From Candidatus Peribacter sp. (lineage in GTDB: Bacteria > Patescibacteriota > Gracilibacteria > Peribacterales > Peribacteraceae): a DNA stretch of 41,544 bases. The notes under the pieces were generated by a model. That model was not told where the DNA came from, did not search any database, and saw only the letters and a list, made by a program, of their open reading frames with translations. Positions within the stretch are counted from its first letter, which is position 1; each line of letters starts with the position of its first letter. Position numbers and translations under genes: made by a program. Positions 35,719 to 41,544 of this stretch are shown one piece after another. Where the stretch lies: positions 1 through 41,544 of the forward strand of contig JABIBA010000015.1 in NCBI GenBank assembly GCA_018652955.1, written 5' to 3'.

Positions 35719-36798
35719 ATGAAAATTGCGATCGTCGCCGACTGGCTTCCCGTCTTCGCAGGGGCAGAACATGTCATTGCTCAACTGCATGATATTTGGC
35801 CCGATGCTCCTATCTTTACACCCGTTGCAAACCGCAAAAATATTGGCCCTCTTGCGGAAGCAGATATTCGCACAGGTCCTCTGCAAAAGTGGTACAACCT
35901 TACGGGGAATCATCAGTGGATGCTGCCGTGGATGCCACGTGCAATTGAAGACACAGACTTACGCGGCTTTGATACGATTATCAGTTCATCACATGCGATC
36001 GGTAAGGGAATTATTCCACCCAGTACCGCTAGGCATATTTGCTACTGCCACACACCAATGCGCTACGCATGGGAGATGGAAGACGAGTACTTAGATGACT
36101 TTAAAGTTCCCCAGTGTTTGCGTAGAACAATTAAAGAAAAGCTCAAGAAGATTCGCAAATGGGACCTCACATCGGCGCAACGCGTCGATCAATTTATTGC
36201 GAACTCTACGACTGTCCAAGAGAGGATCAAAAGAATTTATAACCGTGACTCTGTCGTGATACATCCTCCTGTCTCTGAACGATTTTTTACACACCAATCA
36301 TCTGCCCCAAAAGACTATTACTTAACCGTCGGACGTCTAGTCCCCTACAAGAGGACAGACCTTTTGATTCAAGCGGCAAACGCGATGAAGATCCCCCTAA
36401 AAGTTGGAGGATCAGGAAAAGATTTTGAACGACTGAAGGCCATGGCAGGACCAACAGTAGAGATGTTAGGCTTTGTTCCAGACGAAGATCTTCCGGAGCT
36501 TTATGCAGGTGCAAAAGCATTTTTATTTGCTCCGTTTGAAGACGCAGGAGTAGTCCCCCTAGAAGCACAAGCGTGTGGCACACCAGTCGTTGCGTTCGGC
36601 AAAGGAGGAGTGCTGGATACCGTGAAAGACGGAGAAACTGGAGTGTACTTTAACGCCCAAGAAGTTGATGCAGTAACCGATGCAATCGCGCGATTTGAAA
36701 GCATGAATTTTGATGCACACACGATCCGTGAACATGCGAAAGCCTTCTCTGCTAAGCGGTTTCAAGAGAAGATGCAACAGGTACTTGACAGTGTGTAA
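35719..36798 (+). CDS. GT4-family glycosyltransferase (mannosyltransferase-like)
   Basis: A 359-residue GT-B enzyme: MKIAIVADWLPVFAGAEHVI at the N-terminus, ANSTTVQERIKRIY at the domain junction, VGRLVPYKRTDLLIQA at the donor domain start, and EDAGVVPLEAQACGTPVVAFGKGG. The last holds the family's E-x7-E motif. It is cytoplasmic, retaining, and uses a nucleotide sugar. The overall look is close to WbaZ-type mannosyltransferases of polysaccharide clusters, but the sugar cannot be determined. I start at 35719; an upstream ATG at 35680 adds 13 unconserved residues. It is divergent from the ftsQ cluster and could feed surface glycan synthesis with the membrane transferases upstream. Confidence 0.87.
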   Translation: MKIAIVADWLPVFAGAEHVIAQLHDIWPDAPIFTPVANRKNIGPLAEADIRTGPLQKWYNLTGNHQWMLPWMPRAIEDTDLRGFDTIISSSHAIGKGIIPPSTARHICYCHTPMRYAWEMEDEYLDDFKVPQCLRRTIKEKLKKIRKWDLTSAQRVDQFIANSTTVQERIKRIYNRDSVVIHPPVSERFFTHQSSAPKDYYLTVGRLVPYKRTDLLIQAANAMKIPLKVGGSGKDFERLKAMAGPTVEMLGFVPDEDLPELYAGAKAFLFAPFEDAGVVPLEAQACGTPVVAFGKGGVLDTVKDGETGVYFNAQEVDAVTDAIARFESMNFDAHTIREHAKAFSAKRFQEKMQQVLDSV

Positions 36799-36879
36799 AA
36801 TAATACTAAAGTAACATAACTTGTGCTAACCGCATTGTGCGGTAGCTGCTCATTCTCAGAACAGGAACATGGTGATGTC

Positions 36880-37233
36880 ATGCACGAATACCGCCACTTT
36901 TTTACGGAAGTAAACAGAGGATGTTTGATCATCCACCTCACTACGACGTCCATGGCAATGCCAGACATATGCAATGAGGTTTTAGATGACCTTGGAAGAG
37001 TGCTCAGCGCGACGCACCTTCCGACAATCATCGACTGCGAGAGGCTAGAACAACTCTCAGCCCACTTTATGCGCATTCTTGTGCAGGCGCATACCACGGT
37101 GACAGAACGAGAGATGCCATGTGCACTCTGCAATCTCGACCCTCGGTTCGACGAAGTGTTGGACGCAGGGTTGGTAAAGCAGAAATGTACCATCGCTGAT
37201 TCACTTGAAGCCGCGTTCCTCCTCTGTGCATGA
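36880..37233 (+). CDS. STAS-domain protein, tandem copy 1
   Basis: The 117-residue protein is a stand-alone STAS domain of the anti-sigma-factor-antagonist type: CLIIHLT strand, PTIIDCERLEQLSAHFMRILVQA (strand and helix carrying the switch Ser), and CALCNLDPRFDEVLDAGLVKQKCTIADSLEAAF. The Ser of QLSAH is at the position of the DSSG phosphoserine in SpoIIAA-like proteins. It may control a partner through phosphorylation; the partner is not in the window. The start at 36880 gives the same size as the next two genes. Its own terminator follows at 37265. Confidence 0.7.
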   Translation: MHEYRHFFTEVNRGCLIIHLTTTSMAMPDICNEVLDDLGRVLSATHLPTIIDCERLEQLSAHFMRILVQAHTTVTEREMPCALCNLDPRFDEVLDAGLVKQKCTIADSLEAAFLLCA

Positions 37234-37264
37234 ACACACCGCACCAATCCTAGTGCAAGTACAC

Positions 37265-37290
37265 CCCCCTCGCTGAGGGGGTTCTTTGTA
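37265..37290 (+). terminator. terminator after the first STAS gene
   Basis: CCCCCTC-GCT-GAGGGGG is a perfect 7-bp hairpin followed by TTCTTTGT. It makes the first STAS gene a separate transcript. Confidence 0.75.
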
Positions 37291-37391
37291 TGTTCTTCTT
37301 TACATATCAACTAACAATAAGGTTCAATATCAGTAGTAGTTTCAGTTCTTTTTTATACTGCGAAGGCGCACAACCCATAAGGATCATTGTT

Positions 37392-37748
37392 GTGAGCGAT
37401 TACAAATGTAATGCCGTTAGTTACACCAGGGAGGCCGTTATCGTAAGACCGCTAATCATGAATCTGGGCAATCCAGACTGGGTAACTGCTTGGGCAAATG
37501 AGCTCAATAGTATCCTCAGTGAAACGCCGAAGTTGCTTCTCCTGGATATGGGAGGTGTCTTATATCTCAGTAGCTATGCAATCGTAAAGCTTATTGCTCT
37601 AGACGATAAGGCAACCAAGGCGACCAAGATCCTGGTCCAAACAAATATTTTACCAGAAGTTGCGAAACTTTATGACATCACGCGGAAGAACGAAGTCTTC
37701 TGTATAGCAGAGGACAACGCGTCCGCCATCGCGCACTTCGGTGCATAA
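37392..37748 (+). CDS. STAS-domain protein, tandem copy 2
   Basis: The 118-residue STAS-like protein has KLLLLDMGGVLYLSSYAIVKLIALDDKATKATKILVQTNILPEVAKLYDITRKNEVFCIAEDNASAIAHF. The Ser pair in YLSSY is aligned with the switch serine of antagonists. I choose the GTG at 37392 because AAGGA lies 8 nt upstream and the length then matches the other two STAS genes; an ATG at 37290 would add a hydrophobic, unrelated stretch. A hairpin terminator follows. Confidence 0.7.
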   Translation: MSDYKCNAVSYTREAVIVRPLIMNLGNPDWVTAWANELNSILSETPKLLLLDMGGVLYLSSYAIVKLIALDDKATKATKILVQTNILPEVAKLYDITRKNEVFCIAEDNASAIAHFGA

Positions 37749-37779
37749 ATATCTTAAGAAGAGCGTCAAACTGCCCATT

Positions 37780-37806
37780 ACCTCCTGCTTACACGGGAGG
37801 TTTTCT
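37780..37806 (+). terminator. terminator after the second STAS gene
   Basis: ACCTCC (37780-37785) pairs with GGAGGT (37796-37801), 6 bp with a 10-nt loop, and TTTTCT follows. Confidence 0.65.
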
Positions 37807-37901
37807 AATGTAATCTTTTCTTTACATTACCCCAAAAGGTAGTAGAGTACTATTAGTGTTTTCGTGACCGTTCTTTCCCTTCGCCCCATAGGAGTTCAGC
37901 A

Positions 37902-38258
37902 ATGAACGACGGGCATGTGTTGAAAGTGGAAGTTTTGGACAATGTAGCTGTGGCAACGATTCAACGACCGAATCTGGCAGAAGAGTCAACTGTCTTTTCT
38001 CTCAGTCAAGAGTTGTTCGATCTTGCCCTGCAAATCAAGCCCCCCTTCCTGTTTGACTGTGAGCGTCTCAGAGTTCTCTCTGCATCAGCAGTACGAGAGT
38101 TTCTCAAGTTTCGCAAAGACAACAGCTTTCAACCAAACGACTTGCATTTCTGTGCAGCAACAACAGAAATCAAGGAAGTGTTTACGCTCATGCGTATTGA
38201 AAGTTATTTTACTTGGCACTCGTGCCGAGAAATAGCTCTCACTAGACTGAATTCGTAA
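37902..38258 (+). CDS. STAS-domain protein, tandem copy 3
   Basis: A 118-residue STAS-like protein. PFLFDCERLRVLSASAVREFLKF is very close to the first copy's DCERLEQLSAHFMRIL, and the Ser of VLSAS is at the switch position. A clear AGGAG lies 7 nt before the ATG. The C-terminal segment (EIKEVFTLMRIESYFTWHSCREIAL) is the usual last STAS helix pair. It is followed by a hairpin shared with the convergent CNNM gene. Confidence 0.75.
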   Translation: MNDGHVLKVEVLDNVAVATIQRPNLAEESTVFSLSQELFDLALQIKPPFLFDCERLRVLSASAVREFLKFRKDNSFQPNDLHFCAATTEIKEVFTLMRIESYFTWHSCREIALTRLNS

Positions 38259-38304: not shown

Positions 38305-38338
38305 GCCGGCTTTCTGCAAAGGAAGCCGGTGTATTTTA
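38305..38338. terminator. terminator between STAS copy 3 and the CNNM gene
   Basis: GCCGGCTT (38305-38312) pairs with AAGCCGG (38323-38329) and is followed by TGTATTTTAG on the plus strand. It overlaps the stop codon of the convergent minus-strand gene. Confidence 0.65.
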
Positions 38339-39330: not shown

Positions 39331-41544
39331 CTACTTCTTCCTGCGACGAATCCAACTTAATCCTGCAGCTGCTCCAGCTCCAACGATAGCTACTGCAGCA
39401 GGCCCTGTATCACCTGCAGGTCCACGTGACTGGATAGTAGGCCTTAGCTGAGCAAATGGAAGCTGGTACGGGGCAGATGGATACTGTCGCTGTTGCTGGA
39501 ATTGTGGAGAAATATATTGCTGTGCAACAACCGCAGGAACACCTAGTCGTTGCGCAATAAGGTTCACTTTTTCAGGTGTCTGGTTTGCCAAGAAGAGCCC
39601 AAGTAGTTGTGGATTGTTTGCAAGGTACTGTCCGAGTGCAGGTGGTGGACCTGAGACTGCTTGAATCGCTTCAATCTGAGAAACAGAAATCGTCGTAAAC
39701 TCCGAGAGTACTTTTGTTTCTCTAGGAGAGAGTGGTGTGTTTGGCACACCAAGATCTGCTGCTTGAGATTCAAAGGCAATTTCTGTTGGAGCTTCATGGA
39801 GATTTCCTTCAGCTTCTTTTGTGCACTGCCTACTACAGCCATCACCATTCAAGCGGTTTCCATCATCACACTTTTCCGAAAATTGATCGTCTGTCACTCC
39901 ATCACCACATCGTGGGTAGCTGCAATCTGCTCTGCATTTTGCATTTGACGCATCAGAGTTTAATGGACCCCTATCACACTCTTCACCATCATCTAGTGTG
40001 CCGTTACCACAAAGAATAGAAAAGAATCTACAATCAATACAATCGTATGGAAGAGTAGAATCATGGCTTGATGGTTCGCACTGTTCGTTGAGTAACGTCT
40101 GTACTTTTCCATCACCACAGATGCCAACTTCTGCCCTACATGTAGAACTACAACCGTCGTTATCTCTACGATTACTATCATCACATTCTTCTGGTGATTC
40201 GAGGACACCGTTTCCACAGATAGATGCTGCTGCAACGAGGGTTTCATCATCATCAGAACCACCTGTAGCTCCGCCAGTGTTGTTCCCACCTGTAGCTCCG
40301 CCAGTGTTGTTTCCACCTGTAGCTCCTCCGGTACTACTAGTTCCACCAGTGCTTCCTTCGTCGTCGTCGATAATCACTACTGTTTGCGAAGAAGAACTTT
40401 GCGCAATAATGGTCGAGCTGGATGTCCCGGAGCAATCTTCATCAGAAGAACAGGTATTAGCGCGAGTACCGAGAGTTATTCTGCATTGGAAGTTATTACA
40501 CGCTAAGTGCGACCCCCGAGGAGGGCAATCGGAAGACTTAACACATGTGTTGGTTCCCGGTCCAAATTTCGTAATGCACTGCTGATCTTTACATACCGTG
40601 TGTACGAGAGGGTCATCGCAACGTAGCTCATCGCTACATTCATTTCTTCCAGAACCAACAACCTCCACACAGCTATCATCCAAGCATTTGAAATGCTTTT
40701 CAACAGCAGGACAGTTATCAGGGTCTAGTGTGCAACCGTTCTCTCCTTTGGTCTTAACAAGAATACAAGAGCCATTCTTACACTCTGTGTGCTCTTCTTC
40801 TGGCTTACAAGATGTGGAGTCGTTACAGGTATCTTTGCTTGTACCTGCAACTCTGGTGCACGCGTTGTTATCGCACTCTAGATGACCGCACTCGTTATCG
40901 TTGGTACACGTGTTGTCTCCTGCTCCATCAACTTCTTCACAAGCAAGCCCTCTGCATTCAAGGTGCTTGCCGACAACAGGGCAGTTATCTGGATCCAAAG
41001 TACAACCATTCTCTCCTGCGGAATTGACCACAACACAAGAATTATTTTTACACTCTGTGTGCTTCTTAACTTCATCACAAGGAGTACTACTATCACAGGT
41101 ATTGTTTCCACCCCCAGCCTTTCTGGTGCACGCGTTGTTATCACATTCTAAGTGACTGCAATCATTGTCGTCTGTACATGTGTTGTCTCCTGCTCCATCG
41201 ACTTCTTCGCAAGCAAGCCCTCTACATTCGAGATGCTTGCCGACAGCAGGGCAGTTATCAGGGTCTAGTGTGCAACCGTTTTCGCCTGCGGTATTAACTA
41301 CAACGCAGGAGGCATTTTTACACTCAGTGTGTTTCTTTGTCTCATCACATGGAGTACTGCTGTCACAGGTGTTTAAGCCTCCTCCTGCTTTTCTGGTGCA
41401 CGCGTTGTTATCACATTCTAAGTGGCTGCAATCATTGTCGTCTGTACATGTGTTGTCTCCTGCTCCATCGACTTCTTCGCAAGCAAGCCCTCTACATTCG
41501 AGATGCTTGCCGACAGCAGGGCAGTTATCAGGGTCTAGTGTGCA
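39331..41544 (-). CDS. Cys-rich repeat surface protein with DUF4215 repeats and C-terminal anchor, partial
   Basis: The frame stays open from the stop codon at 39331 to the window edge, 737 residues in view; the start is outside. Its N-terminal part is 90-residue repeats, each made of three ~30-residue modules of the pattern H-x-x-C...C...G...C...C (KHLECRGLACEEVDGAGDNTC; SHLECDNNACTRKAGGG; KHTECKNNSCVVVNSAGENGC). A Ser/Gly/Thr linker with repeated GGATGGNNT follows. Next are four Myxococcus-type DUF4215 disulfide repeats (CGNGVLESPEECDDSNRRDNDGCSSTC and relatives, about 39828-40222). The C-terminus is TGPAA, a hydrophobic helix and RRRKK, like a sortase-type sorting tail. It must be exported and oxidised. 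An adhesin or stalk protein is plausible. Confidence 0.85.
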   Translation of the reverse strand, partial: CTLDPDNCPAVGKHLECRGLACEEVDGAGDNTCTDDNDCSHLECDNNACTRKAGGGLNTCDSSTPCDETKKHTECKNASCVVVNTAGENGCTLDPDNCPAVGKHLECRGLACEEVDGAGDNTCTDDNDCSHLECDNNACTRKAGGGNNTCDSSTPCDEVKKHTECKNNSCVVVNSAGENGCTLDPDNCPVVGKHLECRGLACEEVDGAGDNTCTNDNECGHLECDNNACTRVAGTSKDTCNDSTSCKPEEEHTECKNGSCILVKTKGENGCTLDPDNCPAVEKHFKCLDDSCVEVVGSGRNECSDELRCDDPLVHTVCKDQQCITKFGPGTNTCVKSSDCPPRGSHLACNNFQCRITLGTRANTCSSDEDCSGTSSSTIIAQSSSSQTVVIIDDDEGSTGGTSSTGGATGGNNTGGATGGNNTGGATGGSDDDETLVAAASICGNGVLESPEECDDSNRRDNDGCSSTCRAEVGICGDGKVQTLLNEQCEPSSHDSTLPYDCIDCRFFSILCGNGTLDDGEECDRGPLNSDASNAKCRADCSYPRCGDGVTDDQFSEKCDDGNRLNGDGCSRQCTKEAEGNLHEAPTEIAFESQAADLGVPNTPLSPRETKVLSEFTTISVSQIEAIQAVSGPPPALGQYLANNPQLLGLFLANQTPEKVNLIAQRLGVPAVVAQQYISPQFQQQRQYPSAPYQLPFAQLRPTIQSRGPAGDTGPAAVAIVGAGAAAGLSWIRRRKK
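40262..40341 (-). repeat. 27-bp tandem repeats encoding a GGATGGNNT linker
   Basis: Three copies of a 27-bp unit start at 40262, 40289 and 40316; the third is diverged at its end. They encode 9-residue Gly/Thr/Asn units between the Cys-rich modules and the DUF4215 repeats. Such repeats can vary in number by slippage. Confidence 0.8.
40711..41544 (-). repeat. 270-bp tandem repeats in the Cys-rich surface gene
   Basis: The same block recurs at 40711, 40981, 41251 and 41521, exactly 270 bp (90 codons) apart. The two outermost complete copies in view are nearly identical at the DNA level, and the inner ones are diverged. The array continues past the window edge, so copy number is unknown. Confidence 0.9.

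Follow-up and report, generated by a model that had tools for sequence, protein, structure and literature searches.

Three neighbouring genes for small STAS switch proteins in a very small Candidatus Peribacter genome

The closest described counterparts of the proteins reported here are the SpoIIAA/RsbV antagonists, whose phospho-switch depends on an acceptor serine; in SpoIIAA, we take this residue to be Ser58 within FMDSSGLG. Ser58 is a functional residue of SpoIIAA (PMC8256260). In Chlamydia, one RsbW and two RsbVs control the primary sigma factor, and S-to-A variants of RsbV do not dissociate from RsbW when ATP is present (PMC4552016). In mycobacteria, RsfA is switched off once two of its cysteines form a disulfide (PMC7693655). 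A search of the open-access literature for STAS domains together with the Candidate Phyla Radiation found nothing on the subject, and sigma-factor partner switching in candidate-phyla bacteria seems hardly described in that literature. Here we report small STAS switch proteins that are encoded by three neighbouring genes of Candidatus Peribacter sp., whose genome is very small (1.2 Mb in an assembly of 99% completeness). The window, i.e., the whole stretch of DNA that was analysed, is 41,544 nucleotides long, and the features of the locus are as follows.

36785-36812, + strand: promoter-like site upstream of copy 1 (TTGACA-16-TAAAGT, a consensus match at 10 of 12 positions)
36880-37233, + strand: STAS copy 1 (c1), 117 aa, with S60-A61 at the switch site and 7 cysteines
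37265-37281, + strand: terminator hairpin behind copy 1, followed by TTCTTTG
37392-37748, + strand: STAS copy 2 (c2), 118 aa, GTG start, with S60-S61 at the switch site
37780-37801, + strand: terminator hairpin behind copy 2, followed by TTTCT
37821-37848, + strand: promoter-like site upstream of copy 3 (TTTACA-16-TAGAGT, a consensus match at 9 of 12 positions)
37902-38258, + strand: STAS copy 3 (c3), 118 aa, with S60-A61-S62 at the switch site
38305-38330, + strand: terminator hairpin behind copy 3, between it and a convergent CNNM/CBS gene

The three reading frames are intact and lie head to tail, codon usage favours exactly these frames and is native, and Shine-Dalgarno-like sites were recognized by eye. 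An earlier note, made from the window alone, had described three stand-alone STAS proteins of 117-118 residues, each gene with its own terminator. The ORFs, profile matches and models all agree with this description, and a hairpin with a T-run follows each of the three genes. Terminator-like sites are enriched in the region (7 found vs 1.9 expected), and promoter-like sites are near chance (4 found vs 2.3 expected). Apparently, each STAS gene is a separate transcription unit. A longer copy 2 starting at 37290 was rejected on its negative codon usage, and an antisense ORF (36762-37310, 182 aa) was rejected as well, its codon usage giving no coding signal. The trio is flanked by a glycosyltransferase gene on one side and by the convergent CNNM/CBS gene on the other (CNNM assigned by Pfam). 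Elsewhere in the window, a long cysteine-rich repeat protein that adjoins the STAS/CNNM genes is encoded on the - strand (39331-41544) and runs off the window end, and ORFs at 1-2700 match L070 in several overlapping frames, a pattern expected for a candidate ribosomal RNA gene.

On Pfam STAS (PF01740), copy 1 scored 24.7 bits, over the cut-off of 22.6, and copies 2 (16.2 bits) and 3 (13.5 bits) fell under it. A family profile gave 106-111 bits for copies 1-3, scores that are inflated since all three seeded that profile. The same profile matched the solved SpoIIAA and TM1442 chains, neither of them a seed, with E values of 1e-12 to 1e-15, and it also matched 3t6o, RsfB, and RsbV (lowest E value overall, 4e-15). 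A profile search had been named beforehand as a possible refutation of the STAS assignment; the assignment survived it, as solved STAS proteins were matched. Copies 1 and 3 were modelled with AlphaFold at pLDDT values of 94.0 and 95.8, respectively, and the top structural match of both models was 3t6o (Z 16.4 for copy 1 and 16.7 for copy 3), with SpoIIAA from its complex with SpoIIAB no more than about 1 Z behind. The fold thus comes from models for copies 1 and 3, and copy 2 was assigned by profile and alignment. Taken together, profile matches and STAS fold place the trio in the STAS domain family.

Profile alignment to SpoIIAA and TM1442 placed a (Y/F)-L-S-S-A motif on the switch site without gaps, and we therefore take the second serine of the motif as the acceptor. 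The acceptor position is residue 61 in all three window proteins; it is alanine in copies 1 and 3 and serine in copy 2, so that the acceptor serine of the SpoIIAA/RsbV phospho-switch is found in copy 2 alone. Copies 1 and 3 also have in common the string DCERL-x-x-LSA, as the earlier note had pointed out. That note overlooked the alanines that replace the acceptor in two of the three copies. Across the family, 25 of 30 proteins carry S or T in this column, and alanine is found in copies 1 and 3 and in one protein of genome G033. The position before the acceptor, an Asp in SpoIIAA, is Ser in 23 of the 30; judging from the alignment, Ser60, which takes the place of this Asp, could in principle be phosphorylated instead of residue 61. 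Given that S-to-A RsbV variants of Chlamydia stay bound to RsbW, copies 1 and 3 look like naturally occurring counterparts of these mutants.

The triplet, whose conservation the earlier note had proposed to check, is not kept within the genus. No convincing copy of any gene of the trio was found in the same-genus genomes, two of which (G003 and G001) have the kinase described below and no STAS match. Arrays of tandem STAS genes or domains turn up again in five further family genomes, a finding beyond the reach of the window-only view of the earlier note: G076 has a triplet, G093 three genes where a contig ends, G013 and G007 a pair each, and G094 two STAS domains fused in one protein (L081:293-1141). 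In the tree, copy 1 clusters with one member of the G013 pair (support 97/86). Recent tandem duplication as a simple origin of the trio was rejected because copies 1-3 have only 15-18% mutual identity and do not group together as one clade. The branches of copies 1 (3.18) and 3 (2.21) are among the longest in the tree, and the placement of copy 3 is a long-branch join. Apart from related glycosyltransferases near some of the STAS genes, no conserved neighbour was found in 20 regions. A scan of the genome collection with copy 1 and a viral scan with copy 3 returned no relatives. In-frame TGA codons were seen in some relatives of the class, which would fit a candidate-phylum lineage (Patescibacteria, Gracilibacteria-type).

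No RsbW-type kinase gene was found on the window contig, and the trio has no cognate RsbW-type kinase in its own operon. Genome-wide, one clear RsbW-type switch kinase (HATPase_c_2) was detected on contig C11 (G000:C11:77182-77886, i.e., L083:1498-2202); it is a protein of 234 aa with a Pfam score of 50.8 bits, and its gene is divergent from alaS. The ATP-binding residues E67, N71, DxGxGF, and GRG are intact, and none of them varies among 14 relatives. A fourth STAS gene, also stand-alone, in which the acceptor serine is present, lies on contig C1 directly upstream of groES-groEL (L063:9889-10254). The two phosphatase families covered, SpoIIE and PP2C_2, had no match in the 99% complete genome. 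Four sigma-70 proteins are encoded, RpoD on C13 and, on C9, one of 432 aa and two of ECF size. The statement that no kinase or phosphatase adjoins the trio hence holds locally and fails genome-wide for the kinase, whose absence from the window reflects a scattered genome, not absence from the cell. Directly upstream of the C11 kinase gene, with a 4-base overlap, is a gene for a 140-aa protein (L083:2199-2621), for which hhalign gave a STAS probability of 61% and Pfam no STAS match. From its sequence, this neighbour may be a diverged STAS protein, and it may be the real cognate of the kinase. Near another kinase gene, a 157-aa protein (L096:910-1383) likewise appears diverged-STAS-like, with a weak profile match.

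The earlier note had raised a distant partner for the trio. This is conceivable, as one RsbW-type kinase sits on another contig; the corresponding family-wide association was not found. Among 74 family genomes, 24 matched the STAS profile and 29 the kinase profile, with both in 7, STAS only in 17, and the kinase only in 22 (p=0.31), i.e., the two co-occur no more than by chance. The kinase was detected in 4 of the 6 array-bearing genomes vs 3 of the 18 STAS genomes without an array (p=0.038, a post hoc comparison with small numbers). The kinase gene often adjoins alaS in the family (L083, L084, L085, L086, L087, L090, and L095), an adjacency that persists despite low conservation of the kinase sequence. 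Three genomes (G013, G091, and G095) have, immediately downstream of the kinase gene, a sigma-70 gene whose product contains regions 1.2, 2, and 3 and is about 53-55% identical to RpoD of the window genome over the conserved core. These loci are as follows.

L136:1459-3558: kinase and sigma-70 genes
L161:1441-3591: kinase and sigma-70 genes
L138:1417-3690: kinase and sigma-70 genes

G013 thus combines this adjacency with the tandem STAS pair that includes the closest relative of copy 1. As far as gene order can tell, the adjacency fits an anti-sigma role of the kinase. A sensor-histidine-kinase-like gene follows the kinase in several other genomes, and in other families of the class the switch kinase is fused to STAS proteins or adjoins them (L068:6552-7851, L070:8215-9384).

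We tentatively favor a dispersed partner-switching network, to which we give somewhat less than an even chance, in which copy 2 would be a switchable antagonist and copies 1 and 3 antagonists that cannot be phosphorylated, acting with the C11 kinase. The three free-standing SpoIIAA/RsbV-type proteins would act in trans, and their most likely partner would be the lone RsbW-type kinase, encoded next to alaS and presumed to keep a sigma-70 factor bound. Copy 2 (S61) would be inactivated by phosphorylation, whereas copies 1 and 3, because of the alanine at the acceptor site (A61), would be permanently competent, akin to the laboratory S-to-A mutants that stay kinase-bound; their effect would be set by the amount made or by another signal, possibly redox in the case of the cysteine-rich copy 1. 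In this scheme, binding to the C11 kinase, sigma-70 as the target, and which way control runs are inferences. The structural matches to solved anti-sigma antagonists, the intact ATP box of the kinase, and the kinase-STAS neighbours and fusions in the class support it; the missing family-wide co-occurrence, the presence of the kinase without STAS in G003 and G001, and the kinase's own 140-aa candidate partner count against it. Our confidence stays below even because of the lack of co-occurrence and this candidate partner. A more specific version, in which a PP2C-free network makes the non-phosphorylatable copies 1 and 3 to free sigma-70 from the remote RsbW-type kinase and the tandem arrays are an evolving input layer, seems unlikely as a whole.

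The main rival is that the trio serves a target other than an RsbW-type kinase, e.g., a histidine-kinase-type ATPase, a transporter subunit like MlaB, or an envelope protein. We consider this somewhat less likely than the favored network; it accommodates the 74-genome result, the 20 regions without a conserved neighbour, and the 140-aa candidate partner of the C11 kinase, and orphan STAS-only outputs whose targets are not established, such as SypA, have been described (PMC8256260). The best structural matches, however, are anti-sigma antagonists and not MlaB or transporter STAS proteins, with the limit that structure alone cannot assign a partner. The cysteines of copy 1 (7 among its 117 residues, p=2e-4 relative to the 1% background of the window, and the highest number among 30 relatives), combined with its missing acceptor serine, would suit an RsfA-type redox antagonist in which a disulfide replaces phosphorylation as the off switch, at least for this copy; but copy 3 has only 3 cysteines, as does the G013 relative of copy 1, and we regard this explanation as quite improbable.

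Slightly less probable still is decay of copies 1 and 3 as paralogues at an accessory locus that changes fast, relaxed selection having cost them the serine and lengthened their branches. Their branches are indeed among the longest, and the triplet has no counterpart in the rest of the genus; against decay, the frames are intact, with native codon usage, terminators, and Shine-Dalgarno-like sites (by eye), the predicted folds of both copies are very confident, and the copy 1 lineage is common to another genus. The alternative raised in the earlier note, a hetero-assembly like that of RsbR and RsbS in the stressosome, found no support, and we judge it very improbable. Several STAS paralogues do lie in one place, and their fold is common with RsbS, but each copy consists of one bare STAS domain and lacks an RsbR-like N-terminal sensor domain; because this domain is absent from all copies, an assembly of this type is unlikely. 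The trio and the fourth STAS gene all encode single domains of 117-121 aa, in none of which a sensor is joined to STAS as in RsbR. A check for RsbT found a single switch-type HATPase_c_2 kinase in the genome, unlinked to the STAS genes of this set, and this sole switch kinase does not adjoin an RsbS/RsbR gene. Moreover, an own terminator for each gene argues against a simple stoichiometric operon.

Collectively, these results indicate that the trio is an unusual variation within the well-known STAS regulatory family and not a new type of system; we rank it as a variant because the acceptor serine is lost in two of the three copies and tandem arrays recur. If the favored network is true, these bacteria have retained an RsbW-type kinase together with several STAS proteins but lack a SpoIIE/PP2C phosphatase, natural serine-to-alanine antagonists are used, and the locus is an example of switch rewiring in a reduced genome. 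The recurrent adjacency of kinase and sigma-70 genes offers a concrete, testable target.

Compared with known systems, the trio shares its fold, size, and single-domain build with the SpoIIAA/RsbV antagonists (STAS-only, PF01740). It differs from them in three respects: the acceptor serine, kept in copy 2 as in these antagonists, is replaced by alanine in copies 1 and 3; the Asp that precedes the acceptor is mostly Ser in the trio's family; and no kinase or sigma gene lies in the operon, with no SpoIIE/PP2C_2 detected genome-wide. The STAS protein of Planctomyces limnophilus (3t6o) is the best structural match to copies 1 and 3, yet its identity is only 17%. In RsfA, a disulfide is the off switch, and for the cysteine-rich copy 1 such redox control is conjectural. 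The Rsb network of Chlamydia trachomatis (RsbW, RsbV1, RsbV2, and RsbU) likewise has one RsbW-type kinase, several STAS antagonists, and sigma-70 as a plausible target; unlike the trio system, it has PP2C-like phosphatases and an acceptor serine in both RsbVs.
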